Positions 2,474-17,168 of a stretch of DNA of 49,739 bases are shown piece after piece. The position numbers and the translations under genes were made by a program. Location of the stretch: contig NZ_JANIBK010000017.1 in the NCBI RefSeq assembly GCF_024505165.1, positions 1-49,739 of the forward strand. The letters are read 5' to 3'. The notes beneath the pieces are model-generated. The model worked only from the letters and a program-made list of their open reading frames with translations, had not been told where the DNA came from and ran no database searches. Numbering within the stretch: the stretch's first letter is position 1; every line of letters starts with the position of its first letter. Origin of the DNA: Methylomonas rivi. GTDB taxonomy: Bacteria; Pseudomonadota; Gammaproteobacteria; Methylococcales; Methylomonadaceae.

Positions 2474-5400
2474 TCATGCGGTTTGTTGGGGCGGTTTCGA
2501 GGCGGATTTTGTTTTCCAGACGCCGCCTCCGGCGAAACACGACCAGCCCCATTGCAGCCAATTCAACAGCGCCAGGGCCATCCATAAAGACCAGCCCAAC
2601 ATCATTAAACGGTAGACCATCATCGGCACGGCTACCACGGTTGCAGTGGGCAAGATGGCGTCGCTGCGGTCCTGATACCAGTTCAAGTTTAGCGCCGCGG
2701 ATTGATTGCCGGTAATTTGCATATCCGGCGCGCCGAGCAGGCCTTGCCGGACGGCGGCAAATAGCAACATCACCGCTGTCAGCGTCAACAGCCCTAAACC
2801 TACTTGCGCCAAATTAAAATAGCGTGGAGACGCCGGAGGGCATTTTGCCCGCGATCCCAGGGCAAACAGCCAGGCTATTACCAGCAGGCCGGCGGCGATA
2901 TGGATTTGGCTCAGGCCCAACAATAGCAAAAACCAATGCCAGGTTTTTAAAGGCGTTAATGCGGTTTTGCCTAGTCCAAGGGCCAATAACAGCAACACGG
3001 CCAATAAGCCCCAAATCAACGCGGCCGGGCCGAATTTAGGGCCGAACGTGAATAATACCCAGCGATCCTGACCGGAAGTTACCTGTATTTGGCTGTTGAC
3101 GCTAGCGATTCCTAAATCAACCGTGGGGGTGGTCAAGATCGTTGCCTGCTCGGTTTGCGTCTGCCAGTCCAACGTTATTTGCTGCTCGCCCGGCCTGATC
3201 GGCAGCGTGACGGTTCGGTCTTTTTGCCGGACAGGCTGACTGACGCCGTCAATTGCGACGTTTTGCAATACGGCGCGCGGCGGCAACTGTACATTATGCT
3301 GGCCGCCCTTGGAACTGCGCATGCGCAAATTCAAACTGGCTTGCTGGCTGCGTTTGCCGGGCTGGATGCTCAGCTCGGTTTTATCTATGGTCAGGGTTGG
3401 CCCCGGCACGGCTTGCGGCCGGCTGATTTGCAAGCTTACGCTATCGCCCGGCCAGGGCCGCCATTCCGGCAGCCATGCGCCCTGTTGGTCTTGATGGTGC
3501 ACAACCGCAATGCCGCTGATTTGTAAATGCCAGATAGGGCTGACGTCGGCGCGCCATAATTCGCTCCAGGGGGCATTTTCGGCGGCGGTTAACTGCAATT
3601 GCTCGCGTTTTTCCAATAGCGATTGCCATTCCAGGCCTGCTTGCCCGGCCGGTAGGTTGACGAGGACTTTGCCGTCTTTAATGTGCATTTTAGCGCTGGT
3701 GACCGCTTCTCCCGGTAGTAGCGGGAGCTCCAATACCACCGGACTGTCGTTGCCGGCCAGTTTGACCACCCGGGTGGCGATGCGCCAGTCCAGGCCCAAT
3801 TGCAGGGTCCTTTCAACGCGTACAAACGCCGGCATGGCGGTTTGCCGCAAATGCTCGGTTTGCCGGGTTGCCTCGGGGTCGAGGCGGGTAAATTCCAGCT
3901 GCGGGCCGGTTTTAGCGTCTTCGTACAGCCCATCGACCCGCCAGCCGTCGCTGTCGATATGCGTTTGTTGCGGTTGCAATGGCAGGGGCAGGGTAAATTT
4001 ATAGTGCGGCGCATGCCGGCCCCGCAGCAAGACTTCATGTACGCCCGGATCGAGACCCAGCCAGAGCGTGCCGTCGTTTTGCCTGAACAGGGCGCGGGCG
4101 GGTTGGCCGTCGGTACTGACCTGTTCCGGAAACCACTGCTGCAGTTGCGCGGGCAACGGTACGGCGACGGCTTCCTGCGCATGAATCGATAATGCTATCT
4201 GCATGCTGTCCGGTTGGATCCTAATTGTCATGCCGGCTATTTGCGCGCAGGACGGCAAACACTTCGGCGCTTGCAATAGCCGGGTTTTTAACTGGTCCAG
4301 CAGGGTTTGGTCGGGGATGTCCGCCGAACTGTCGTGGCCTGGCAGCATCATTACCGGTACCAGCAGCCAGACAGGCGAAGCCGGAAAGGCGATACGCCAG
4401 GGCTTGTCGGCCAAACCTAGCATTTTTAAAGCCAGCAAGGCGGCCAGCAAGGCTTGCGCAAGGTGCAGCAATAAAGTCCAGCCGGGCGGCAAATACCAGA
4501 GCCGGATTTGCTGTTGGCTATCCACGGCGCCGTTCCAGGCCAGTTGTACGGTTTGCCATTGCCATTGCGGCAAGCCGGGGCCGGTTTGCAGATTGGCTTC
4601 CGGATCGATACGGTCGAAATTGGCGGCGGCACCGGCATAATCGGCCATGCTGGAATAGGCCTTGCTCATCATTTTTCCGGCCATGCGCGGGGCGGGCGCC
4701 GGCGATGCAGGCATGGCCATGGTCCGTTGTTCTTCGGCAACGCCCTCGCTCTCGGCCATGCTCTCGACATAAGCGCCGGTTTGAATCGGTTGCCAAGGCT
4801 TTTCCAGTTGCGGGTAAATGCCGATACGGATTTGCGCGATCATGAACGGCACCACGATCGCGATCAAACCCAGCCAGCACGCATTGCGATACCACTTGAC
4901 CCAATCCGAAAAGCGGCTGGCCGGCAGCACTTTCAATAAAGCCAGCGCCGCCAGCGTATGCAGCCATATCCAGCGGGGCGCCTCGGCTTCATGCCAAAAC
5001 AGGATTAGGCTAAACAGGGCCAGCAGCCCCCATTGCCAGCACCACAGGCGGCCAATCGCCAGGGCCGCGATCAGTACCAGGAACAAGTCCAGCAAGGTCC
5101 AACGGGTCAGCCAGCTGTCCGGGTCGTTGTCCACGCCGCTGACCGCCAGCAGGCGCCAGCCGGGCGGGATATTCAGTTCGGCTTGGGCTTTTTGAAACGC
5201 TTGTTGCCAACCGACCGCGTTCAGGCTGCCGATAGCGTTATCGATGCGGCTATCGGCCTGTAATTGCAGCGCGCCCCGGCGCACCTCGATACCTTGCCGG
5301 TCGCCGAGTTGGGTGATCAATTGATTTTGCCCGTTCAGCAGCACCTGTCCCAATAGCGTGTCCGGCAAGGCGTTCAAGCGCCAGTCGCGGGTCATTTTGC

Positions 5401-6508
5401 CGTCGATCCGGTCGCTGACGGTGTAACCGCCGCCATCGAAGTCCAGCCAGAGCTTGCGTTGCAGATTCAGACGGTTGGGTTCCGGTTCGGGGTCGCCTTG
5501 GCGGATCAGCTTGAATTGCATGCTTTGCCCTTGCTTGATTTGATAGGCCGGCAAATGCCGCCATTCCGCGGGCAGGTTGGTTTGGCTGGCGTCTACGGCG
5601 GGCAAGGCTTCGATTTCCACCAAGCGCAGGGCAGGCACGGCCTGAAACGCCCACAACTCGGATGCCGGCCAGTCCGGGTCTTGAACGGCCAAGTCCAGCT
5701 TCAACAACGGCTTGGGATGGCGGGCGAGTAGGGTGATGTGCCAGCGGCCGGGGCGGATTTGCAGCAACAGGCTGCCATCTGTTTCGATGCGGGCGGGCAG
5801 CGGGCTGTCGAGCCGAACCGGAATAAAGTCCGGTAATAAAGCATGGGGCAGACTGATTTCGCGGGCCGTGCCGGAGACGTTTAATTCCAGGCGGGTGGAG
5901 AGTTGAAGCGGGTTGTCGTCTATGACTTGCCGAAAGACTTGTAAATCCAGGTTGTCTTGTTGGCTGTCCGCCGACGTGGCTGCCTGGCCTTGCAACCAGA
6001 GCGCGCCCTGATCAATGCGCGGATAGGCGATGGCTTGGCCGTTCAGGATCAGTTCGATCAAGCCTGAATCCTGGGCAATGGCGAGGCTTTCCGGCAATTT
6101 GTCCCAGCTGAATTCGCCGCTGATTCGATAATGGCCGGCCGGCATCCAAATGGTCGGTTTGTCTTGCCGTTCGATAACAACGGCCGGTTTTCGGTCGATC
6201 AGCACCTGTTGCGGCCAATGCCGGTTGTCGCCGGGCAAGCCGATCCAGCCGGGCCGATACAGAGTCCATTCGCCGTTGAAGCGGCCATGGCGCTCATGCA
6301 ATTCCAGCTGTAACGGACCGGGCCAACCGCAGTCTTTCTGTTGAAAATTGTTATGGAAAAACGGGCAATCGAATTGGGGCTGATCGGCCAATACCCACGG
6401 AACCCAGGGTTTTAATGCATCCGGCAGGGATTGGCTGTCTAGCGCCGCGGCCGGATAGACCCGGCAAAGCAACAGCAGGAATATCAAAAAATTGCGGGCA
6501 CTATTCAT
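2474..6508 (-). CDS. Very large exported multi-pass membrane protein of unknown function
   Basis: About 1344 residues. ATG 6508 is chosen over an in-frame upstream start at 6538 because it has GGAG about 8 bp upstream and begins directly with a signal peptide (MNSARNFLIFLLLLCRV, then AAALDS). Layout: an N-terminal exported region of about 470 residues rich in Trp, Gln and Leu; three or four hydrophobic helices (about 470-590); a helix pair near 690-730 around a proline-rich stretch; a second large exported region predicted to be beta-rich (about 730-1140); and four or more C-terminal helices (about 1155-1330). I see no catalytic or binding motif and do not recognise a named family. Alternating exported domains and helix bundles would fit an envelope assembly or transport protein, but that is speculation. 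It is monocistronic, flanked by a terminator downstream and a divergent promoter region upstream. Confidence 0.85.
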   Translation of the reverse strand: MNSARNFLIFLLLLCRVYPAAALDSQSLPDALKPWVPWVLADQPQFDCPFFHNNFQQKDCGWPGPLQLELHERHGRFNGEWTLYRPGWIGLPGDNRHWPQQVLIDRKPAVVIERQDKPTIWMPAGHYRISGEFSWDKLPESLAIAQDSGLIELILNGQAIAYPRIDQGALWLQGQAATSADSQQDNLDLQVFRQVIDDNPLQLSTRLELNVSGTAREISLPHALLPDFIPVRLDSPLPARIETDGSLLLQIRPGRWHITLLARHPKPLLKLDLAVQDPDWPASELWAFQAVPALRLVEIEALPAVDASQTNLPAEWRHLPAYQIKQGQSMQFKLIRQGDPEPEPNRLNLQRKLWLDFDGGGYTVSDRIDGKMTRDWRLNALPDTLLGQVLLNGQNQLITQLGDRQGIEVRRGALQLQADSRIDNAIGSLNAVGWQQAFQKAQAELNIPPGWRLLAVSGVDNDPDSWLTRWTLLDLFLVLIAALAIGRLWCWQWGLLALFSLILFWHEAEAPRWIWLHTLAALALLKVLPASRFSDWVKWYRNACWLGLIAIVVPFMIAQIRIGIYPQLEKPWQPIQTGAYVESMAESEGVAEEQRTMAMPASPAPAPRMAGKMMSKAYSSMADYAGAAANFDRIDPEANLQTGPGLPQWQWQTVQLAWNGAVDSQQQIRLWYLPPGWTLLLHLAQALLAALLALKMLGLADKPWRIAFPASPVWLLVPVMMLPGHDSSADIPDQTLLDQLKTRLLQAPKCLPSCAQIAGMTIRIQPDSMQIALSIHAQEAVAVPLPAQLQQWFPEQVSTDGQPARALFRQNDGTLWLGLDPGVHEVLLRGRHAPHYKFTLPLPLQPQQTHIDSDGWRVDGLYEDAKTGPQLEFTRLDPEATRQTEHLRQTAMPAFVRVERTLQLGLDWRIATRVVKLAGNDSPVVLELPLLPGEAVTSAKMHIKDGKVLVNLPAGQAGLEWQSLLEKREQLQLTAAENAPWSELWRADVSPIWHLQISGIAVVHHQDQQGAWLPEWRPWPGDSVSLQISRPQAVPGPTLTIDKTELSIQPGKRSQQASLNLRMRSSKGGQHNVQLPPRAVLQNVAIDGVSQPVRQKDRTVTLPIRPGEQQITLDWQTQTEQATILTTPTVDLGIASVNSQIQVTSGQDRWVLFTFGPKFGPAALIWGLLAVLLLLALGLGKTALTPLKTWHWFLLLLGLSQIHIAAGLLVIAWLFALGSRAKCPPASPRYFNLAQVGLGLLTLTAVMLLFAAVRQGLLGAPDMQITGNQSAALNLNWYQDRSDAILPTATVVAVPMMVYRLMMLGWSLWMALALLNWLQWGWSCFAGGGVWKTKSASKPPQQTA

Positions 6509-7618: not shown

Positions 7619-10600
7619 GCGATTTTTTGCGTTTCCGATTATGGGCGTCGTTGCGCCGCTTTGGGCGGGAATCCATCCACCGCCGCCTGGCCTTGGCATT
7701 CGGCGGGGTTTCCCTGCTGATGATGTTGGGCCTGGCCGGCTTGTTGCTGAAGCAGCAGCAGAACTTTCTGGATCAGGCCGGCATATTGCGGGCGAAGACG
7801 CTGGCTAACGGGCTGGCAAACAGCAGCAGTTCCTGGGTATTGGCGAACGATGTGGCCGGTTTGCAGGAGGTCTTGCAAGGCTATGCGGATACCCCTAATT
7901 TAATCAGGGCGTTCGTGCTTTCGCCGCGCGGACAGGTACTGGCGTCCACGCGGAGCAACGAGACCGGTTTATACGTGACCGACGAATTGAGTCAACGCTT
8001 GCTCGGCCGGCAGCCGGCAACCCCCCGTTTAATACTGGCCGACCGGGATATGATCGATGTGGCCGTGCCCATCTTGGCGAATCAACGCCTGGTGGGTTGG
8101 GCGCGTATCGAATTGGACCAACAGGCCACTCAAGCCAATCTACGGGCGGTTGCCATTGCCAGTTTGCAGTTTATTGTGGCGACCGTGCTGATTTTGCTGC
8201 TGGTGTCGCTGTGGTTGTCGACCAGTCTGATCAAGCCCTTGCAGTCCTTGATGGGGGTGGCGTCCGCGATTGAAACGGGCTCCCGCACCGAACGCAGCCG
8301 GCTGGAAGGCAATAATGAAATCAGCCAGTTAGGCCGTTCCATGAACCATATGCTGGATACCCTGGTGAGCTCCGAGCAGCAATTGGATTTGTTGAACCGG
8401 GTGTATGCGGCCTGGACGGAAAGCGTGGCCGCCATCGCGCGCGAAGCCGACGAATACAGTTTGCTGACGCGGATATGCAATATTTTGGCGGAAAAAATTC
8501 GCCTACGCTTGGTATTCGTCGGCATGCTGGATACATCGGGCCGGATCGATGTGCTGACGCATAGCGATAGCGAACCGGGGTATATCGGCAAGCTGCATAT
8601 TAGTATCGACCCCCGTTCGCCTTATGGGCAAGCCGTATTGGCGCGGGCCATACGCCAAGAACAACCCTGCATTTTGAACGATTTTATCGGCGAGCCGGAT
8701 ACCCGCATCTGGCATGAATCGGCCCGGGAGGCGGGTATCCGATCGGTTGCCGCTTTTCCGCTGTTGCGCAATAAGCGGATTATCGGCGGATTGGCGGTGT
8801 ATTCCGAACGGGCCGGCTTTTTTAGCGACAACATCATTACCCTGTTGAATGGCTTGGTCAACGATATGTCCTACGCCCTGGACAATTTCGACCGGGAAAG
8901 ACAGCGCAAACAGGCGGAAATCGAACTCGCCCTGGCCGCCTCGGTGTTCGAGAATAGCCAGGAAGGCATTTTGATTACCGATGCCGACAAGACCATTCTC
9001 AGGGTTAATCGGATGTTCAGCGAGTTGACCGGTTATGCGGCCGAGGAATGCATCGGTAAAACCCTGCGGCAAATTGCCTGCTGGCCTAGGCAAGCGGCGT
9101 TGGATCAGACTGTTTGGGACAATGCCGATGCGCAACAATGTTGGCAGGGCGAGGTCGACAGTTGCCGCAAGGACGGCCGGCATTATCCGCAATGGTTGTC
9201 CCTCATTAAAGTCGTAAATCCGCAGGGGAATTTGACGCATTATGTGGTGACATTTACCGATATTACCGAGCGCAAGCTGAATGAAGAACGCATTTATAAA
9301 TTGGCGTTTTACGACCCCCTGACGGATTTACCCAATCGCCGGCTACTGCTTGAAAAGCTGGAAGCCGCATTAATAGCCAACCAGCGCAAAGGCGGCTATG
9401 GCGCCGTGATGTTTTTGGATTTGGACCGCTTTAAAATTTTAAACGATACCCAAGGCCATAATTTAGGCGATCAGCTGCTGGTCGAAGCCGGCAGGCGGCT
9501 GTGCCGGTCGGTCCGGGAAGTGGATACGGTTGCCCGGCACGGCGGGGACGAATTTGTGGTTTTGCTGGGAGAATTGTCGGCCGATGAGCAAACCGCGGCG
9601 ATTAACGCGCAAAAAATCGGCAACAAAATTCTCAATGAAATGAATCAGATCTACCGCTTGCTCCAAGCCAACCCCGAAGGCGGTACGGCCCTAGTGGAAC
9701 ACTATTCCAGCGTCAGTATCGGCGTGGCGCTGTTTCGCGGCGCCGACATCGATAGCGAAGAGTTGTTGAAACAGGCGGACATGGCTATGTATCAGGCTAA
9801 ACAGGCCGGGCGCAACACCTTATGCCTGTTCGATCCGCAAATGCAGGCAGGGTTGAATAAGCGGGCCGCATTGGAGGCCGATTTGCGCAACGGCTTGGAA
9901 CAAAATCAGTTCAAGTTGTTTTATCAAGTCCAGGTAGACAGGCACGGCCGGCCGGTAGGCGCCGAGGCGGTGTTGCGGTGGGAGCACCCTCGGCGCGGCT
10001 TGGTGGAACCGGGAGAATTTATCGGTCTTGCCGAAGAAAGCGGTTTGATTGTGGTGCTGGGGCGCTGGGTTTTACTGGAAGCCTGCGCGACGTTGGCGAA
10101 TTGGGCCCGGCAGCCGGCGATGGCCGAATTGAGTTTGGCGGTGAACATCAGCGCCAAACAACTGCGGCAGCAGGATTTTGCCGCGCAGTTGCAAGGCCTG
10201 CTCGGCCGGACCGGCGCTAACCCGCAGAGGCTGAGACTGGAAATTACCGAGAATGCGGTATTGGGCGGCGTGGAAAATACGATAGCCATGATGCAAGCGC
10301 TAAACAAACTGGGGATAGTCTTTTCGATGGACGATTTCGGCACCGGATATTCATCCTTGACCTACTTGCAGCGTTTGCCGCTGGCTCAGATAAAAATCGA
10401 TCGTTCTTTTGTCGGCGGCCTAAACGATGAAAACCATCACGCGGTGATTGTCCGCATCATTCTGGCCTTGGGCAATAGCCTGGATTTACAAGTCATCGCC
10501 GAAGGCGTGGAAACCGAGCGGCAGCTGGCCTATTTGGTCGCCAATGGATGCCGGTATTTTCAAGGTTATCTGTTTGGCGGCCCCGAACCCGTGGCGCAAT

Positions 10601-10623
10601 TTAATGCCCGCTTTAACGGCTAA
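7615..10623 (+). CDS. Membrane GAF-PAS-GGDEF-EAL c-di-GMP enzyme
   Basis: 1002 residues. In order: TM1 (about 25-47), a periplasmic domain of about 130 residues, TM2 (about 180-203), HAMP (203-255), GAF (275-430), PAS (442-555), GGDEF (565-740) and EAL (755-1000). The cyclase site is intact: RHGGDEF near residue 642, with the inhibitory RxxD (REVD) five residues before it. In the EAL domain the signature reads EAV rather than EAL (GAEAVLRW), but the later motifs are present: EITENAV, DDFGTGYSS, IKIDRSF and IAEGVET. Phosphodiesterase activity is therefore plausible. The gene overlaps the PhnD-like binding protein by 4 bp, so the periplasmic domain probably reads that protein's ligand state. 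It would make or degrade cyclic di-GMP at the inner membrane. Which activity dominates is unknown. Confidence 0.93.
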   Translation: MSDFLRFRLWASLRRFGRESIHRRLALAFGGVSLLMMLGLAGLLLKQQQNFLDQAGILRAKTLANGLANSSSSWVLANDVAGLQEVLQGYADTPNLIRAFVLSPRGQVLASTRSNETGLYVTDELSQRLLGRQPATPRLILADRDMIDVAVPILANQRLVGWARIELDQQATQANLRAVAIASLQFIVATVLILLLVSLWLSTSLIKPLQSLMGVASAIETGSRTERSRLEGNNEISQLGRSMNHMLDTLVSSEQQLDLLNRVYAAWTESVAAIAREADEYSLLTRICNILAEKIRLRLVFVGMLDTSGRIDVLTHSDSEPGYIGKLHISIDPRSPYGQAVLARAIRQEQPCILNDFIGEPDTRIWHESAREAGIRSVAAFPLLRNKRIIGGLAVYSERAGFFSDNIITLLNGLVNDMSYALDNFDRERQRKQAEIELALAASVFENSQEGILITDADKTILRVNRMFSELTGYAAEECIGKTLRQIACWPRQAALDQTVWDNADAQQCWQGEVDSCRKDGRHYPQWLSLIKVVNPQGNLTHYVVTFTDITERKLNEERIYKLAFYDPLTDLPNRRLLLEKLEAALIANQRKGGYGAVMFLDLDRFKILNDTQGHNLGDQLLVEAGRRLCRSVREVDTVARHGGDEFVVLLGELSADEQTAAINAQKIGNKILNEMNQIYRLLQANPEGGTALVEHYSSVSIGVALFRGADIDSEELLKQADMAMYQAKQAGRNTLCLFDPQMQAGLNKRAALEADLRNGLEQNQFKLFYQVQVDRHGRPVGAEAVLRWEHPRRGLVEPGEFIGLAEESGLIVVLGRWVLLEACATLANWARQPAMAELSLAVNISAKQLRQQDFAAQLQGLLGRTGANPQRLRLEITENAVLGGVENTIAMMQALNKLGIVFSMDDFGTGYSSLTYLQRLPLAQIKIDRSFVGGLNDENHHAVIVRIILALGNSLDLQVIAEGVETERQLAYLVANGCRYFQGYLFGGPEPVAQFNARFNG

Positions 10624-10881
10624 AAACCGTGCTAATTTCCGGAAAGCCGCGTGTCAAGCAGTATCTGTCGGATCATCCGCTTCGGAGAGGGTTGCGGTGA
10701 GGGGGGTGAAAATCAATAACCTGTTGTTTTATATGCTCTCATCTTAACGATCATGAATGCCTTTACTTCGCCCCGGCTCATGAAAGCAGTATCCCCGGGT
10801 ACGGTTGCTTGTGGAACAGGACGCCGTGAATACGTCCGTGTCGGCTCGGCGCCGTCATCCTTGCCGCCGACGCCTGTCGGC
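10624..10881. other. Intergenic region with decayed repeat sequence
   Basis: No gene is supported here. It holds a short palindrome (GGACG at 10819-10823 pairing with CGTCC at 10833-10837) inside a GC-rich stretch ending at the left repeat element. It also has a GA/GT-rich segment near 10683-10708 that looks like a dispersed intergenic repeat. Both are only visible as structure; their copy number in the genome is unknown. Confidence 0.4.
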
Positions 10882-11022
10882 CGATTGTGTTGAAAAAATC
10901 GGTTTTTTAAGAATTTTGACCAATTTTACTGTTCGTCAAAAGCATAACCATTTGTTTTTATTGGATTAAAAATTAGGCATACAACTGAGTTTTTCAGAAA
11001 ATGGCCTTTTTCAACACAATCG
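10882..11022 (+). mobile_element. MITE-like element, left copy
   Basis: A 141-bp AT-rich element begins CGATTGTGTTGAAAAA and ends with its exact inverse complement TTTTTCAACACAATCG. In this copy the terminal repeat extends outwards to GGCC/GGCC (10879-11025). It encodes nothing credible. The right copy at 16909-17049 is its inverse complement with three mismatches. Non-coding sequence with perfect terminal inverted repeats and near-identical copies is the definition of a MITE; the parent insertion sequence is not visible here. I could not identify a convincing target-site duplication. Confidence 0.8.
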
Positions 11023-11199
11023 GCCAAAACCCGACCGTCGGGGTTGCTATCCAATTTCAATAGATTAGGTTACCAGTGCTCCTTTTGACTGTCAGGTATT
11101 GGGCGAGAAAAATGGCATTGTCACTGGCCGCTACGACCATAACAGAATGTGCTAAGGCAAATAGTTAACCCTAATTTAACACCGATAATAGAAAAACCT

Positions 11200-11760
11200 A
11201 TGGAACGAACGGCTTTAATGCTAGTTGACGTGCAGAGAGGGTTCGATAACCCGCAATGGGGTATCAGAAATAACCACGATGCGGAACGGAACATCGCGCG
11301 ACTGCTGACACGTTGGCGAACATTGCAATCACCTATAATCCATATTCAACACCGTTCCACCACTGCAAATTCGCCATTGGCGCCCGATCAACTTGGCTGT
11401 GATTTCAAACCGGAAGCCACACCCATCGCCGGCGAACCGATCTTCGGCAAACAGGTCAATAGTGCTTTCATAGGAACAGGGCTGGATCAGTTTCTGCAGG
11501 AGCAAGGCATACACAAACTTGTCATCGCGGGTTTCACCACCGACCATTGCGTTTCTACCACGACCCGCATGGCGGGCAACCTCGGCTATGAAACCGTACT
11601 TGTGTCAGATGCGACCGCCACCTTTAACCGCCGAGGACTCGATGGTGTCAATATCTCCGCAAATGACATCCATAATGCACATTTGGCCAGCCTTGACGGC
11701 GAGTTCTGTATGGTTAAAACCACCGACGAAGTTTTGATCGATTTATTTAAACCGCGTTAA
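11200..11760 (+). CDS. Cysteine hydrolase of the isochorismatase fold
   Basis: 186 residues from ATG 11200 (a GTG at 11149 would add 17 residues not typical of the family; no clear ribosome site helps the choice). The catalytic triad of the family is visible: Asp in MLVDVQRGF, Lys in GKQVNSAF and Cys in FTTDHCVSTTTR. The HCVSTT loop and the nearby VIAGF strand are diagnostic. Members hydrolyse isochorismate, nicotinamide or other amides and N-carbamoyl compounds; the substrate here cannot be assigned. It is followed 15 bp later by an SRPBCC gene in the same orientation, both convergent with the LysR gene. It is the first gene inside the left repeat. Confidence 0.85.
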   Translation: MERTALMLVDVQRGFDNPQWGIRNNHDAERNIARLLTRWRTLQSPIIHIQHRSTTANSPLAPDQLGCDFKPEATPIAGEPIFGKQVNSAFIGTGLDQFLQEQGIHKLVIAGFTTDHCVSTTTRMAGNLGYETVLVSDATATFNRRGLDGVNISANDIHNAHLASLDGEFCMVKTTDEVLIDLFKPR

Positions 11761-11775
11761 CTTGAGAGAAAGCCA

Positions 11776-12213
11776 ATGAATAGCTATCGCTTACATACCG
11801 AAATTGAAATAGCTGCCACGCCGGAGCACGTTTGGTCCATTCTGACCGATTTCCCGTTTTACCCGGAATGGAATCCATTTATCGTCAGTATCAATGGCGA
11901 CATTAAACATGGCGCCAAGCTCCAAGTACGGATACAGCCGAACGGCGGAAGAGCCATGACGTTTCGGCCGCGTCTTGTGGTTGTTCAGCCCGGAAAGGAG
12001 TTGCGCTGGCTGGGCCAATTTTTGTTCCGCAATCTCTTTGATGGCGAGCATCGGTTTGCCATTGAGCCTATCGCCGATGGACGCGTCCGCTTTACGCAGA
12101 GTGAGCATTTCAGCGGATTGCTGCTGCCGCTATTCCAAAAAAGCCTTGCGCAAAATACCAAAACGGGCTTTGAAGCGATGAATCGAGCCATCAAAGCCCG
12201 CGCCGAAACCTGA
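11776..12213 (+). CDS. SRPBCC (START-like) domain protein
   Basis: 145 residues making up one complete SRPBCC helix-grip domain: an opening beta strand with IEIAATPEHVWSILTDF, then YPEWNPFI, and a final long helix containing FEAMNRAIKAR. The WNPF element is typical of polyketide-cyclase/dehydrase-like members that bind hydrophobic ligands in a deep cavity. GAGAGAAAG precedes ATG 11776 at normal spacing. It probably forms a two-gene unit with the upstream hydrolase. No catalytic residue can be named, and the ligand is unknown. Confidence 0.85.
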   Translation: MNSYRLHTEIEIAATPEHVWSILTDFPFYPEWNPFIVSINGDIKHGAKLQVRIQPNGGRAMTFRPRLVVVQPGKELRWLGQFLFRNLFDGEHRFAIEPIADGRVRFTQSEHFSGLLLPLFQKSLAQNTKTGFEAMNRAIKARAET

Positions 12214-12245
12214 CACCACCTGTATTTTGCTTTTCACAGGGTGCA

Positions 12246-13154
12246 TCACAACCCGATAGCCCTGATGCTCGAGCGCAGCCAAGCTAGTTCGAGATTCCGG
12301 TCGGCGCCTGCCCGCCAGATCGATACAAAGTCGAAGTTGGGTATTGCAAACGGCGGTTCCAACACAACAAGATTGGGAGAGATTTTTTCAATATTGATGG
12401 CTCGTGCGGCAATGGTTAGCAGTAAATCCGTTCCCACCAGCAACTCGGCGGCAACCGTAAAATGCGGCACCAACACCGCTATTCGACGCTTCAATCCGCG
12501 CGCCGTCAGAGCGTTATCGACATGACTGTGGTGCATGGCCTGCGTTGAAACATGGATATGCGGCGCCGCAAGGTAATCGCTAAGCGATAGACCGGTTGGG
12601 GGCGTCAGGTTGCGACGATCCGTTACCAATACAAAGCGCTCCTGAAACAGAAGATCGCTTTCCAGTTCCTCGGGCAGCAGCGGAAACACACCGATGCCAC
12701 CATCCAATTCACTTTCCGCCACTTGACGCAGCATCTCCAGTCGCGATGATTGGGACACAACCAGATTTACGCCCGGCGCCTCGACGCGAACACACTGCAA
12801 TAGCCGAGGCAGCACAACCGCCGAGCCATAATCCGACATACCCAGACGAAAGGTTCTCTGGCAATTTACTGGTTCAAAGGGCCCCGACATGACGACTTTA
12901 CGAACATGAGAAAGCGCTTCGGTAAGCGGCCCGATCAGGGTTGCGGCTTTAGCCGTCAAGCGCATTTCATTGCCAACCCGTACTAACAACGGATCGCCTA
13001 TCAACTCGCGCAGTCGATTGAGCGCATGGCTAACAGCCGGCTGTGTCATCGCCAATCGGTTGGCCGCGCGCGAGATATGCCGCTCGTCCAACAGTGCGTC
13101 GAGAACCACCAGCAGATTCAAATCAATATGCCGCAAGTCATGTACTGAATTCAT
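12246..13154 (-). CDS. LysR-family transcriptional regulator
   Basis: 302 residues. The N-terminal winged helix-turn-helix is classic LysR: LRHIDLNLLVVLDALLDERH, then SRAANRLAMTQPAVSHALNRLRELIGDPLLVR. This is followed by the two-lobe effector-binding domain (about residues 90-300). The D-L-N-L-L opening resembles the NodD/NahR branch, whose members often answer aromatic compounds. It is divergent from the VOC-EamA pair and convergent with the hydrolase-SRPBCC pair. A dyad with T-N11-A spacing lies in the divergent promoter region (13179-13197). It most likely controls VOC-EamA and its own gene, and possibly the hydrolase pair. The effector is unknown. Confidence 0.93.
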   Translation of the reverse strand: MNSVHDLRHIDLNLLVVLDALLDERHISRAANRLAMTQPAVSHALNRLRELIGDPLLVRVGNEMRLTAKAATLIGPLTEALSHVRKVVMSGPFEPVNCQRTFRLGMSDYGSAVVLPRLLQCVRVEAPGVNLVVSQSSRLEMLRQVAESELDGGIGVFPLLPEELESDLLFQERFVLVTDRRNLTPPTGLSLSDYLAAPHIHVSTQAMHHSHVDNALTARGLKRRIAVLVPHFTVAAELLVGTDLLLTIAARAINIEKISPNLVVLEPPFAIPNFDFVSIWRAGADRNLELAWLRSSIRAIGL

Positions 13155-13178
13155 AGGCCACTTACAATTTATTCATTT

Positions 13179-13197
13179 CTATTCGTCTACAGAATAG
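13179..13197. promoter_or_regulatory. Candidate LysR operator in a divergent promoter region
   Basis: CTATTC and GAATAG form a perfect 6-bp dyad around a 7-bp centre (GTCTACA). The inner TTC-N7-GAA gives the T-N11-A pattern of LysR boxes. It lies 25 bp upstream of the lysR start and 68 bp upstream of the VOC gene. Confidence 0.5.
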
Positions 13198-13264
13198 CTG
13201 AAACTGCTTACAACGGGTTTAGCCGAAGCCATAGTGGTATCGGGCCGGTGTCAGGAGATTAAAC

Positions 13265-13693
13265 ATGTCGAATTCAAACTTACCCCTGGAATTTTCCAAT
13301 GGTATCCACGTCGCACAAATCAGGATTGCCAGACCTACCAACCAATTAGACACCGTTGTGCGGTTTTACCGAGACGGGCTAGGCTTGCCGGTGATTGGCT
13401 CATTCCAGAATCATTCCGGCTATGACGGTGTCATGCTCGGTTTACCAGGACGCAACTATCACCTGGAGTTTATCCAGTATGCATCCGGGGCTCCCTACTC
13501 GCGGCCTTCTGCCGAAAATCTTTTGGTGTTATATGTAACCGATGCCGAGCAGCGACAAAAACTGTTTGCTAACCTAACCGCAGTCGGGGCCAAGGAAGTC
13601 AATCCGGAGAATCCCTATTGGCTGGATAAAAGCCGAACGTTTGTGGACCCCGACGGTTGGCGGGTGGTGATTTGTTCGGTCGTCGGCGTCTGA
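13265..13693 (+). CDS. VOC-family (glyoxalase/bleomycin-resistance fold) protein
   Basis: 142 residues forming one VOC domain made of two beta-alpha-beta-beta-beta units: VAQIRIARPTNQLDTVVRFYRDGLGLPV in the first half and TFVDPDGWRVVICSV at the end. The conserved FYRDGLG and DPDGW elements are clear. The ending DPDGWRVVI resembles lyases and dioxygenases that use a metal ligand there, but metal-site residues cannot be assigned with confidence. GTCAGGAG lies upstream of ATG 13265. The EamA transporter starts 3 bp after its stop, so the two form an operon divergent from lysR. It may modify or sequester the compound the transporter exports. Confidence 0.88.
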   Translation: MSNSNLPLEFSNGIHVAQIRIARPTNQLDTVVRFYRDGLGLPVIGSFQNHSGYDGVMLGLPGRNYHLEFIQYASGAPYSRPSAENLLVLYVTDAEQRQKLFANLTAVGAKEVNPENPYWLDKSRTFVDPDGWRVVICSVVGV

Positions 13694-13696
13694 CCG

Positions 13697-14575
13697 ATGA
13701 TGGCGCCGCGACACATCTTGCTTGCCCTATTGTGTGTGTTGGTTTGGGGCGGCAGTTTTTCGGTGATCCGTTGGGGCTTACGGGATTTACCGCCATTGGC
13801 TTTTGCCAGTCTCCGCTTTGGTTTGGTGGCTTTGCTAATACCGTTTGTCCCACGGCCAACCATTAACTGGTCAACCATATTCTTATATGGGACAGGCTGG
13901 GGAGCGGTTCAATTCAGTGGCCTTTTTCTAGCCATTCACCACGGGCTGCCGACGAGTCTCAGCTCCGTCTTGGCGCAATCGCAGGTATTTTTCACGCTGT
14001 TGTTTGCTGTCGTTTTTCGGTTGGAACGGCTCTGTATGCGTAAAGTTTTGTCCTTGGGGCTAGCGATCACTGGGGTAAGCGTTATTGCTAGTGACCAAAC
14101 TTCTGTGGTGTCGTCGTTTGCCATTGCCTTGAGCTTATTCGGGGCTAGCGGCTGGGCATCGGGAAATATTGTCGTCAGAATGGTAGCGATTGACGGGCAG
14201 AGGTCTGATTCCCTGACGTTTATCGTCTGGGCATCGCTGATACCTGCTGTAGTACTGGCATTTATGAGTGCTCAGTTTGAAAACCATCAGACGATTTTCA
14301 ACTTGAACCCGGCCGCCGCCTTTCGTGCGATCCTCGCATTGATCTATCAGTCGATCGGTGCATTGCTGATAGGCACTTTGGCCTGGAATCGGTTGCTGAC
14401 CCATTACCCGGCGAGCACAGTTTCCCCTTTTTCCTTACTGACACCGTTGATAGGCCTATCAATCGGCTACCTTCTTTGGGGGGAGACACTTTCAACCGCG
14501 GCGTTTGTCGGCTCGATACTGTTATTTTTAGGCTTGATCAGCAATCTATCAATTGCGAAAGTGCAATCCAAATAG
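13697..14575 (+). CDS. EamA/DMT-family inner-membrane transporter
   Basis: 292 residues with ten predicted helices, arranged as two repeats of five. The opening segment LLALLCVLVWGGSFSVIRWGL is the typical EamA first helix, and the second-half repeat begins near ALSLFGASGWASGNIVVRMV. Such proteins export amino acids, nucleotides or xenobiotics by drug/metabolite antiport. It begins 3 bp after the VOC stop codon and is surely co-transcribed with it. Two consecutive ATG codons (13697 and 13700) are available as start. It is convergent with the MerR gene. Substrate unknown. Confidence 0.9.
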   Translation: MMAPRHILLALLCVLVWGGSFSVIRWGLRDLPPLAFASLRFGLVALLIPFVPRPTINWSTIFLYGTGWGAVQFSGLFLAIHHGLPTSLSSVLAQSQVFFTLLFAVVFRLERLCMRKVLSLGLAITGVSVIASDQTSVVSSFAIALSLFGASGWASGNIVVRMVAIDGQRSDSLTFIVWASLIPAVVLAFMSAQFENHQTIFNLNPAAAFRAILALIYQSIGALLIGTLAWNRLLTHYPASTVSPFSLLTPLIGLSIGYLLWGETLSTAAFVGSILLFLGLISNLSIAKVQSK

Positions 14576-14632
14576 TCATCTTGCCTGCGCGTTGGTTCAC
14601 CAAATCATCAGTTATTCAGCAGTTTGCACGCC

Positions 14633-15055
14633 TCATTTAAATTTGTTTTCCTTCAATTTACTTGGCTGTCTAAACCGATTCTTACCTGCAACACGGAGAA
14701 GACGAAGAAATTTTGGACACTCAAAATGGTTTGGTGCGTTGCAGACCGCAGCATGACGGAGTCCATTTCGCATGGCCGTCAGTTCTTTAATCTTTCTGTC
14801 CAACTCATCCGCCTTGGCCAAAAGCAATGCTCTATTGATTTCGGGGCCTTCAGGGGTAAACATTTCACTGATCTCATCAAGCGAAAAACCGGCGCCACGC
14901 CCCAAACCGATTAAAGCCAGCCGCTCTAGCACATCGGAATTGAATAGACGGCGCAGACCCACGCGACCAGTAGACTGGATCAATCCTTTTTCTTCATAGA
15001 ATCGTAACGTCGAGGCTGGTAATCCAGATACCTTTGCGACCTCAGTTATATCCAT
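14633..15055 (-). CDS. MerR-family transcriptional regulator
   Basis: 140 residues. The N-terminal MerR winged helix is clear (ITEVAKVSGLPASTLRFYEEKGLI, then GLRRLFNSDVLERLALIGLGRGAGFSLDEI). A dimerisation coiled coil follows (ALLLAKADELDRKIKEL). The C-terminal part has two Cys flanking an NHFEC element (VCNAPNHFECPKF), which could hold a metal or a reactive thiol; the final 20 residues are Lys/Arg-rich. It is divergent from the methyltransferase-TauE pair. The intergenic region holds a MerR-type promoter (15080-15110), so this regulator almost certainly activates that pair. Inducer unknown; a metal, a metalloid or an oxidised sulfur/thiol compound would fit the context. Confidence 0.92.
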   Translation of the reverse strand: MDITEVAKVSGLPASTLRFYEEKGLIQSTGRVGLRRLFNSDVLERLALIGLGRGAGFSLDEISEMFTPEGPEINRALLLAKADELDRKIKELTAMRNGLRHAAVCNAPNHFECPKFLRLLRVAGKNRFRQPSKLKENKFK

Positions 15056-15079
15056 AATTTTACCTGTCGAAATTAATAC

Positions 15080-15110
15080 TTGACTTCAAGTTGACTTGAA
15101 CTTTTATCCT
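15080..15110 (+). promoter_or_regulatory. MerR-type promoter and operator for the tpm-like/TauE pair
   Basis: The -35 box TTGACT (15080-15085) and -10 box TATCCT (15105-15110) are 19 bp apart. That is the over-long spacer that MerR proteins correct by DNA distortion. The spacer contains a perfect dyad, TTCAAGT-TG-ACTTGAA (15085-15100). All of this is read directly; only the assignment to the adjacent MerR gene is inferred. Confidence 0.85.
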
Positions 15111-15191
15111 AACTCGGAACACAACTTGGTTCAACACTGAAACATCAAGGCAGTGGTGATTTTTAATACGTCAATGATTTAAGGAGTCGAT

Positions 15192-15836
15192 ATGGAAGCA
15201 AGTTTCTGGCATCAAAAATGGGAACGCGGTGAGATTGCGTTTCATGAAAGCGAAGCAAATCCTTTTCTGGTAGCGCATTTCGAAAATCTAAATTTGGCAA
15301 AAGATAGTCGTGTATTTCTGCCGTTGTGTGGAAAAACACGGGATTTTGCCTGGTTGCTTACCTTCGGTTATCGAGTGGTTGGCGCAGAATTGAGCAAACT
15401 TGCCGTCGATGAGTTGTTTAAAGAACTTGGCTTAGAGCCGAAAATCTCTATAGAAGGCAAATTGACCCGGTACAGCGCTAAAGACATAGACATTTTAGTG
15501 GGCGATGTTTTTGATCTGTCTACTGAAGATATTGGGACCATAAGTGCGATATATGATCGGGCGGCTTTGGTTGCCCTACCAGCCGACATACGAGAGCGCT
15601 ATACCTCCCATCTGATGAACATTTGCGGCACGGCTCCGCAGTTACTGATTACTTATGAATACGACCAACGTCTGATGGATGGGCCTCCGTTTTCAGTGAC
15701 CGAAAACGAAGTCAAGCGACATTATGGAGCTGCTTACCGATTGAGGCCAGTTGAAAGCAAGAATATCGAGGGAGGACTGAAAGGGGAAGTAGCAGCAACG
15801 GAGACCGCCTGGTTACTCCAAAACGCTAATAAATAG
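15192..15836 (+). CDS. Thiopurine S-methyltransferase-type SAM-dependent methyltransferase
   Basis: 214 residues, about the usual length for bacterial TPMT. The family signature is present: FWHQKWERGEIAFHE at the N-terminus, RVFLPLCGKTRDFAWL (SAM-binding motif I region), GYRVVGAELSKLAVDELF and DRAALVALP. AAGGAG precedes ATG 15192. Bacterial TPMTs methylate thiols and also selenium and tellurium oxyanions to volatile products. It is transcribed from the MerR-type promoter with the TauE/SafE gene 11 bp downstream, suggesting detoxification of a sulfur, selenium or tellurium compound. The gene is AT-richer than the window core. The substrate is an inference from family and context. Confidence 0.88.
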   Translation: MEASFWHQKWERGEIAFHESEANPFLVAHFENLNLAKDSRVFLPLCGKTRDFAWLLTFGYRVVGAELSKLAVDELFKELGLEPKISIEGKLTRYSAKDIDILVGDVFDLSTEDIGTISAIYDRAALVALPADIRERYTSHLMNICGTAPQLLITYEYDQRLMDGPPFSVTENEVKRHYGAAYRLRPVESKNIEGGLKGEVAATETAWLLQNANK

Positions 15837-15847
15837 GCTGGTTTTAT

Positions 15848-16651
15848 ATGCCCGGTGTCGAATGGATATTGTTTTACCTTGTATTGGGTGCTTTGGTTGG
15901 TTATATGGCGGGTTTGTTGGGGCTTGGAGGTGGGGGAATATTGGTTCCTTTGCTGTCATCCATTTTTCTTCAGCAAGGTATTAGCGTGGATAAGGTCGTT
16001 CATGTGGCATTGGGAACGTCATTGGCTTGCATGCTGATTGCTTCAGTAGCAAGTATCCGCGCACATGCTTCTCGAGGTGCGGTTGATTGGCAAATCGTTC
16101 GGGGAATGTCGCCGGGAATTATTGTTGGCTCTTTTCTGACGACCCAACTCGCCGCCAACGTTAACTCGGCCTTTATTGCCCTATTTTTTGCGCTATTTAT
16201 GGCACTTATAGCTGTGCAAATGTTTATTAATTGGCAACCAAACCCTAGTCTAACGCCGACAAGTTTCGGCAGACTAATTGTGGCTGGTGTGGTGGTCGGA
16301 TCGGTATCAGCACTTGCCGCAGTGGGTGGCGGTTTCCTTACGATTGTATACTTAGGATATAAGAATGTGGACATTAAAAAAGCTATTGGTTCTTCGTCGG
16401 CAATTGGGTTTCCAATTGCTGTTACGGGTACTGTTGGCTATATGATTAGCGGCTGGCACGACTCATTAAGCAATCCCTATGTCTTCGGGTTCATCAATGT
16501 GCCGGCATTTTTAGCAATATCGATTGCTAGTGCTATTGTCGCCCCCTACGGAGCTGCCTGCTCCCATAGTCTGCCTGTAGTTTATTTGAAAAAGATATTC
16601 GCCATTATTTCGCTGATTTTGAGTGTAAAGATGCTAGTTTCGTTCGTTTAG
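15848..16651 (+). CDS. TauE/SafE-family sulfite/sulfur-compound exporter
   Basis: 267 residues with eight or nine hydrophobic helices in two related halves. The family signature is at the start: GALVGYMAGLLGLGGGGILVP. The matching GVVVGSVSALAAVGGGFLTI appears in the second half. Members export sulfite, sulfoacetate or other organosulfur anions. It lies 11 bp after the methyltransferase gene with a weak ribosome site, so translation may be coupled. Together they form a MerR-regulated two-gene unit: one enzyme that methylates a thiol or chalcogen and one exporter. Visible AT-bias marks it as likely acquired. Confidence 0.9.
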   Translation: MPGVEWILFYLVLGALVGYMAGLLGLGGGGILVPLLSSIFLQQGISVDKVVHVALGTSLACMLIASVASIRAHASRGAVDWQIVRGMSPGIIVGSFLTTQLAANVNSAFIALFFALFMALIAVQMFINWQPNPSLTPTSFGRLIVAGVVVGSVSALAAVGGGFLTIVYLGYKNVDIKKAIGSSSAIGFPIAVTGTVGYMISGWHDSLSNPYVFGFINVPAFLAISIASAIVAPYGAACSHSLPVVYLKKIFAIISLILSVKMLVSFV

Positions 16652-16908
16652 TATTGATCTGAGATTATTAGCTTCAACAATGCCATAAGCAGGAACGAAA
16701 AGTGGCGCGATAAAGATTTCGTAGGCATGACGGACATATCGGAACGGCAGTTTTAAAGCACATGCTTGTCATTGCACTAAATTTCCTGACCGTATCTTGT
16801 TGGCGGCTTGGTTGAGTTCGCCAACGACTGGTTTGTAGTTCGCCAGCCTTCAGAAACTGGCTTTGGCCGACTGACCGGTTTGGAGAAACGTGACAGACCG
16901 GTTTGGGT
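16652..16908. other. Non-coding stretch before the right repeat element
   Basis: No gene is supported. A 10-bp sequence, ACCGGTTTGG, occurs twice about 24 bp apart (near 16874 and 16898), and an open frame that continues into the repeat element looks spurious. The region may be a decayed gene or repeat. Confidence 0.4.
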
Positions 16909-17049
16909 CGATTGTGTTGAAAAAGGCCATTTTCTGAAAAACTCAGTTGTATGCCTAATTTTTAATCCAATAAAAACAAATTGTTACGCTTTTGACGAAC
17001 AGTAAAATTGGTCAAAATTCTTAAAAAACCGACTTTTTCAACACAATCG
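16909..17049 (-). mobile_element. MITE-like element, right copy (inverted)
   Basis: A 141-bp element is the inverse complement of the left copy at 10882-11022 with three mismatches, and has the same CGATTGTGTTGAAAAA terminal inverted repeats. It lies between the TauE/SafE gene and the ruvX terminator region and encodes nothing credible. Confidence 0.8.
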
Positions 17050-17168
17050 GTCGTAACAAGACGATCATGCCTTACCTAACCAAGCGGTGAATTTTACGAG
17101 AACCGAATTTCAATCATGTGATTGAACTCAATGATTAAGCCTAGCGGCTTGCATTCCAAACTTATTTT

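Follow-up and report, generated by a model that had tools for sequence, protein, structure and literature searches.

Integrons carry a tyrosine recombinase gene beside recombination edges, and their cassettes are exchangeable, diverse and mostly without a recombinase of their own. The 28 bp dif sites are used by the host recombinases XerC and XerD. We compared these and related systems with a block of eight accessory genes in Methylomonas rivi, a methane-eating bacterium. The block lies in a stretch of 49,739 nt of contig NZ_JANIBK010000017.1 (assembly GCF_024505165.1, 382 contigs), and this whole stretch is called the window. It is bounded by a left end (LE) and a right end (RE), and two miniature inverted-repeat transposable elements (MITEs) lie just outside these ends. 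The segment from LE (11022) to RE (16909) is probably a non-autonomous, site-specifically inserted cassette with recombinase sites in its ends, most likely those of a compact tyrosine recombinase.

The closest published systems are as follows. The pdif/dif modules of Acinetobacter plasmids have no recombinase of their own, are bounded by recombination sites and use an enzyme encoded elsewhere (PMC13141974, PMC12907356). GInts are tyrosine-recombinase islands with cargo from 2.5 kb up, found bacteria-wide and inserted site-specifically; they need the ginABCD operon (three integrases and a small protein) and leave direct imperfect repeats (PMC5385486). In TIME-COMPs, two Tn3-derived MITEs surround transposase-free cargo (PMC13367494). 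Simple tyrosine recombinases are short enzymes without an arm-binding domain, consisting of a core-binding and a catalytic domain, and some of them move elements (PMC8138268).

The system to which the M. rivi cassette belongs resembles integrons in having a recombinase gene by the edges, swappable and varied cargo mostly without a recombinase, and group II introns at the edge. In contrast to integrons, LE and RE have no conserved folded attC-like structure, the two ends differ from each other, and the units are dispersed and range from kilobases to 18 kb. Moreover, the candidate enzyme scores 24 bits on TIGR02249, far under the 265-bit cut-off for an integron integrase. With the pdif modules, the cassette shares the absence of its own recombinase and, as proposed here, bounding recombination sites and an enzyme encoded elsewhere, but its ends are ~105 bp long and LE differs from RE. 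The Escherichia coli dif sequence had no match in the window at ≤3 mismatches, a search that a divergent dif may escape. Unlike GInts, none of the eight cargo proteins of the window matches an integrase family, so there is no ginABCD operon among them, and no flanking repeat was noticed. Unlike TIME-COMPs, the MITEs of the window are of IS1182 type, stem from two separate insertions and do not form the unit's own ends. The candidate enzyme also deviates from the simple tyrosine recombinases as described, because it matches the catalytic part of the models alone. A literature search returned no recognised description of the LE and RE ends; subscription papers were mostly outside it, and absence from print is not established by it. 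In kind, the present one would be a tyrosine-recombinase cassette system; neither an integron integrase nor a GInt operon was found, and it could be a separate class.

The ends were characterised in a set of 37 Methylomonas genomes, and 53 stretches around ends and cargo were retrieved. A search with the cargo showed that both of its edges are repeats themselves, often paired several kb apart around other genes. Aligned copies resolved into two sharp-edged modules of ~105 bp, with LE beginning GGCCAAAACCCG and RE beginning GACCCAAACCGG. Sequence-only models found LE at 138 places and RE at at least 150, and each end occurred in 30 of the 37 genomes, mostly without MITEs. Across units, the copies of each end have a mean column identity of ~80%. 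By eye, LE and RE have an imperfect terminal motif in common, with similar internal copies, and some ends abut each other. No conserved fold was found in LE or RE (consensus folds of -1.72 and -0.89 kcal/mol, with 6 and 3 pairs). Folded single-stranded ends of the IS200/605 or attC type were rejected accordingly.

The arrangement of the ends is strongly directional. We counted neighbouring LE and RE 20 bp to 20 kb apart, with 20 kb as a chosen ceiling. Among the matches listed, 47 pairs pointed inward and 5 outward, while random orientation gave a mean of 14.7 inward pairs and a maximum of 29 in 2000 trials. The 47 inward spans measured 1.8–18.1 kb (median 4.9 kb).

The cassette edges are sharp and read C/GGCC on the left and GGGTC/G on the right (a slash marks the junction). 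The outer base at position -1 was C in 46 of 50 LE edges and in 46 of 50 RE edges. After removal of edges neighbouring a MITE or another module, the remaining plain edges gave 35 of 37 for LE and 43 of 47 for RE. These statistics omit ends whose profile match begins after position 3, short flanks and duplicates (14, 3 and 1 omitted for the plain-edge set). The flanks of plain LE edges match the RE-flank matrix far above background (p = 3e-10), and hence the target looks like two inverted half-sites around C/G. Pairs were compared by eye, and no consistent target duplication was noticed; in the unit L205, the flanks of 9–10 bp are similar.

Different inserts were found at one and the same base. 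At a site beside a cysteine-synthase-like gene (named by eye), genome G049 holds a 2.7-kb LE/RE unit and genome G048 a different insert of 16.5 kb, both between ...TTCAATC/ and /GATAGCGG. At a second site (akr/TPR), beside an aldo/keto-reductase-like gene, the left edge GAGTTC/GGCC is identical in five genomes (G006, G044, G046, G049 and G010) with different sequence behind it. In two of the five, an IS1182-type end lies within the GGCC.

Another end-like repeat, GATTGCGGTAAATCAACAATC, was seen in the right flank of L251, four times in G012 and once in G023. It starts at a C/G junction, and GGGTC precedes three of the five other copies. It is possibly a second family of ends.

The ends also occur outside Methylomonas. 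RE was present on 18 plasmid records (nine Paraburkholderia, six Methylomonas and one each of Thauera, Caballeronia and Methylotuvimicrobium), and LE on six (four Methylomonas, one Methylotuvimicrobium and one Paraburkholderia). In Paraburkholderia terrae, a catabolic gene set under LysR control is flanked by RE and by a weaker match to LE (E = 7e-5), at a distance of 10.9 kb from each other; the annotation table shows no transposase. The RE consensus had no matches in phages, and an exact 32-base RE core had none in viral contigs.

A flank of the P. terrae unit resembles the leader of a tyrosine recombinase of ~208 aa, and the candidate enzyme was traced in this way. At E ≤ 1.4e-17, the recombinase gave 25 rows in 16 of the 37 Methylomonas genomes. 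Removing two N-terminal fragments without a 3' end (G017, G044) and merging split rows left 23 places. In nine of these, an LE or RE among the ends listed lies ≤200 bp from the 3' end of the gene, and four are at 95–97 bp from LE. In 13 recombinase loci of other records, read by eye, GGGTC/G occurs upstream in five and C/GGCCA just downstream in nine. Among these loci, the profiles confirmed an LE in one, the Paraburkholderia largidicola plasmid L339; in the Methylomonas plasmid L376, they confirmed an RE on the 3' side of the gene. Relatives of the recombinase were found in 448 plasmid records, 256 of them under 60% identity.

The catalytic residues appear to be in place: candidate R, K, HxxR, H and Y motifs were assigned by eye in the L339 protein. 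A Methylomonas homologue matches Pfam Phage_integrase at 2.5e-15, and of the XerA/XerC-type models only the catalytic part is matched. A simple motif scan of the retrieved loci was uninformative, as it picked out a serine-type frame but passed over known tyrosine recombinases. Judged by these matches and by its position, the compact tyrosine recombinase is the likely mover of the cassettes. The gene is not adjacent to the cassette in the window. Because M. rivi shows no intact copy, this cassette probably depends on an enzyme supplied in trans.

The proposed mechanism is as follows. The ends would carry the binding sites of the recombinase, which apparently has little beyond a catalytic domain and is encoded beside such ends elsewhere in Methylomonas and in Burkholderiales. 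The enzyme would join the edges of LE and RE at the C/G step, and the cassette would enter a target that consists of two half-sites in inverted orientation (roughly GAAYGGCNGNWATC/G); no target duplication would arise. The cargo would be exchangeable, since any gene set between LE and RE could serve as a substrate. We infer that the recombinase acts on these ends, that circular intermediates are formed and that movement in M. rivi takes place in trans. IS1182-type elements and group II introns would also insert at the edges, and in this way two MITEs came to bracket the cassette of the window.

Two side observations concern the recombinase gene. In a hydrogenase cassette of G010, the recombinase copy (L228, 796-1344, minus strand) seems to be broken close to its end, and the same genome has an open copy at another place (G010:C1:199767-200372). 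In most of the Methylomonas recombinase leaders, a palindrome (CATGACAA...TTGTCATG) surrounds the ribosome-binding site and the start codon, a layout that suggests self-regulation.

The attraction of other elements to the edges was seen for several element types. Five of 19 MITE or insertion sequence (IS) copies examined sit exactly at an LE or RE edge. Group II introns are present in L212, L228, L229 and L282 (Rfam RF02003/RF00029), and in the first three the intron appears, by eye, to begin exactly at the RE edge (GGGT/GTGCG). This position resembles that of group IIC introns at integron attC sites. On the P. largidicola plasmid, two annotated IS1182-like elements (4393-5832 and 9202-10647) lie near cassette edges, and one abuts an LE-like end by eye. 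Hence, the edge preference of IS1182-like elements may extend past Methylomonas. Such attraction accounts for the two MITEs that frame the cassette of the window.

The MITEs were the starting point of the initial annotation, which described two 141-bp elements with perfect ends, in opposite orientation and with three differences. Both are present as described (differences counted by eye), with exact 16-base ends CGATTGTGTTGAAAAA. The 16-base end has four exact matches in the window and five at ≤3 mismatches, against 0.82 expected; none of 100 shuffles reached five. The transposable part of each MITE is 139 bp, and the bases outside it are 4-bp target duplications, GGCC on both sides of MITE 1 and GGTC on both sides of MITE 2. 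Identical 4-bp flanks were found in 10 of the 15 copies with both ends, and differing flanks in five. In the M. rivi genome, two copies were found, both in the window. Related copies occur in 11 of the 41 genomes of the MITE search set, M. rivi included, and all 11 belong to Methylomonas.

The initial annotation had also proposed a search for a complete IS with the same ends. Two full-length elements with the same 15-bp ends were found in genome G024, L027 (1568 bp) and L028 (1573 bp). The transposase pieces of L027 match NF033551 (IS1182) at 2.5e-55 and 8.5e-71, each under the curated full-length cut-off because of an interruption in the frame; a relative with 91% identity is encoded by L028. 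The MITEs thus have their ends in common with a full-length element encoding an IS1182 transposase. One contig of M. rivi ends, beside pyrR, in a related piece with 85% identity over 87 residues (G000:C167, ~6762, L034). By their ends and flanks, both repeats are IS1182-type MITEs, and since each has its own target duplication, they were inserted separately. The left flank of MITE 1 (10745-10877) is a repeat itself, with many matches of 76–89% across Methylomonas genomes; it is probably an unrelated intergenic repeat.

These results bear directly on the explanation first offered, a MITE-bracketed composite in which an IS1182 transposase moves the whole block in trans with the MITEs as outer ends, as for the Tn3-derived TIME-COMPs. 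Two near-identical inverted MITEs do bracket the block, and the M. rivi contig-end piece and the full-length elements with the same ends speak for it as well. The ends of the unit are, however, not the MITEs but lie just inside them. A 4-bp duplication of its own accompanies each MITE, and the outermost flanks are mismatched (GGCC and GGTC) where a composite would show matching outer duplications. LE and RE bracket other cargo without MITEs in many genomes, and the MITE search of the 41 genomes showed no other two distinct copies close together on one contig. We consider the composite very unlikely. What stands of it is that the block is accessory, free of a transposase and apparently moved in trans. 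An invertible segment between the MITEs, the other possibility raised, is not favoured either, as net inversion would have swapped the duplications, which are intact. A DDE transposase that recognises LE and RE in trans and makes a 2-bp CG duplication is a closer competitor. The imperfect terminal motif with its internal copies recalls Mu- or Tn7-like ends, and CG stands at both junctions; such a duplication would yield the same edges that we attribute to a recombinase. Nevertheless, we regard it as unlikely: no transposase gene recurs across the units read, a fixed CG with an inverted half-site target suits site-specific recombination better, and a tyrosine recombinase gene adjoins some ends. 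Two specific candidates for a mover were rejected. An ISL3 transposase beside one RE belongs to an IS present in 28 copies in one genome; two further genomes gave short partial matches. A Tn554-like recombinase pair, noticed through a TnpB-like gene beside one unit, is strong in five of the 37 genomes and weak in one more, with none in M. rivi. Finally, LE and RE might be an old repeat family, with cargo differences arising by homologous recombination between repeats and no dedicated recombinase. The likeness of the ends between units and their occasional abutment would agree with this, as would the inversion of one cargo block relative to the other in G010. Exchange within 105-bp repeats would not be expected to leave base-sharp edges with unrelated outer flanks, and the inward pairing is strong; we therefore rate this explanation as improbable, slightly more so than a DDE transposase.

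Several observations weigh against the recombinase cassette as the explanation. At the akr/TPR site, the right edge deviates in G010 and G012 (CTACC/G, GGGAT/G) and the left edge in G023 and G024 (TAGTTC, GAGTTT). Of the inserts at the two replacement sites, the LE and RE profiles recognise those of G049 and G006 alone; the others (L279, L282-L286 and L292-L297) have just the terminal bases in common and could belong to a divergent family. Joined flanks were searched for a clean empty site without success: the two chromosomal tests led to other inserts at the same base or to a shortened region without the site, and the two plasmid tests to half matches alone. A circular LE-RE junction was not found. 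The five MITEs at edges represent fewer independent events, as two are those of the window and two others (G003, G011) adjoin units of the same kind. In 14 of the 23 recombinase places, no listed LE or RE lies within 200 bp. The ends are present in 14 of 16 genomes with the recombinase and in 17 of 21 without it, which is no significant co-occurrence (Fisher p = 0.68); the mean number of listed ends per genome was 11.1 with and 5.2 without, values that are raw with respect to assembly quality. In M. rivi itself, an intact recombinase was not found, and the best match is a 43%-identical fragment. Moreover, an enzyme that lacks an arm-binding domain would be expected to act on ends shorter than ~105 bp.

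Taken as a system, the units may stand apart from integrons and dif modules: a compact tyrosine recombinase would act on two different double-stranded ends of ~105 bp, carry cargo of 2–18 kb and exchange entire operons at fixed sites on chromosomes and plasmids of Gamma- and Betaproteobacteria, with edges that are also landing sites for IS1182-type elements and group II introns. We see this broader proposal as about evenly balanced. If it holds, many transposase-free accessory operons of methanotrophs and soil Betaproteobacteria, including those for metal efflux, hydrogenase, phage defence and catabolism, would belong as cassettes to a single mobile system. They would be overlooked by annotation that relies on transposase or integrase content and detected by the two end profiles. 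A compact enzyme with defined ends would be a tractable tool for site-specific recombination, and the recurrent sites would permit a direct test of cassette exchange.

The features of the locus are listed in Table 1.

Table 1. Cassette ends, MITEs, target duplications and cargo genes in the window (positions are those of the window)
Feature	Position	Strand	Basis
GGCC, left target duplication of MITE 1	10879..10882	.	sequence
MITE 1 (139 bp) with ends GATTGTGTTGAAAAA, related to an IS1182-family element and non-autonomous	10883..11021	+	ends common to full-length elements L027/L028
LE, left cassette end, starts GGCCAAAACCCGACCGTCGGGG; first four bases are the right target duplication of MITE 1	11022..11127	+	aligned copies
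Isochorismatase-family hydrolase	11200..11760	+	Pfam PF00857
SRPBCC / polyketide cyclase-like protein	11776..12213	+	Pfam PF10604
LysR regulator	12246..13154	-	Pfam PF00126/PF03466
YycE-like glyoxalase-fold protein	13265..13693	+	Pfam PF22658/PF22659
EamA-family exporter	13697..14575	+	Pfam PF00892
MerR regulator	14633..15055	-	Pfam PF13411/PF09278
TPMT-family methyltransferase	15192..15836	+	Pfam PF05724
TauE/SafE-family exporter	15848..16651	+	Pfam PF01925
RE, right cassette end, GACCCAAACCGGTCTGTCACG from outer to inner; outermost four bases are the left target duplication of MITE 2	16799..16909	-	aligned copies
MITE 2, 139 bp, three differences from MITE 1 across the 141-bp repeat	16910..17048	-	sequence comparison
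GGTC, right target duplication of MITE 2; start of the alignment with Methylomonas sp. SURF-2 (L090)	17049..17052	.	alignment

The enclosed block is accessory as annotated: its eight genes are real, as supported by Pfam matches, and it encodes no transposase. The cassette (LE, cargo and RE, 11022-16909) has the ruvX operon on one side and, on the other, a repeat-rich region that lies behind a GGDEF-EAL gene. The gene pyrR comes after ruvX in SURF-2 and further relatives. In M. rivi (G000), pyrR is on another contig beside an IS1182-type end, and this contig (G000:C167) breaks inside the IS1182-type element adjoining pyrR. The ruvX-pyrR neighbourhood was probably rearranged in M. rivi.

Much of the window cargo was found again in G010 and part of it in G006, adjoining an RE with a non-MITE outer flank. 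The first of the two gene blocks, from isochorismatase to EamA, lies inverted with respect to the second in G010. The initial annotation had named the same genes without the repeats as the finding that would count against its proposal. This is borne out in so far as cargo lies beside a MITE-free RE in both genomes, but at other sites and only partially.

The cargo of other LE/RE units varies. A unit in which LysR accompanies two membrane proteins was seen repeatedly, in many genomes; in others, hydrogenase genes, RND efflux and PEP-CTERM-like or adhesin-like proteins were recognised by eye. Open reading frame starts were read by eye, and 12 proteins from LE/RE units were run against profiles. 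The profiles identified AbiL-like and AriA/AriB-like defence proteins, a MACPF protein and an ammonium transporter fused to GGDEF-EAL domains. Within this material, no transposase recurred across units, and several units hold ordinary insertion sequences. M. rivi itself has, on another contig (L210, G000:C228), an LE-bounded stretch with a partial RE match that carries an AriA/AriB-like (PARIS-type) defence pair, recognised with a PADLOC profile.

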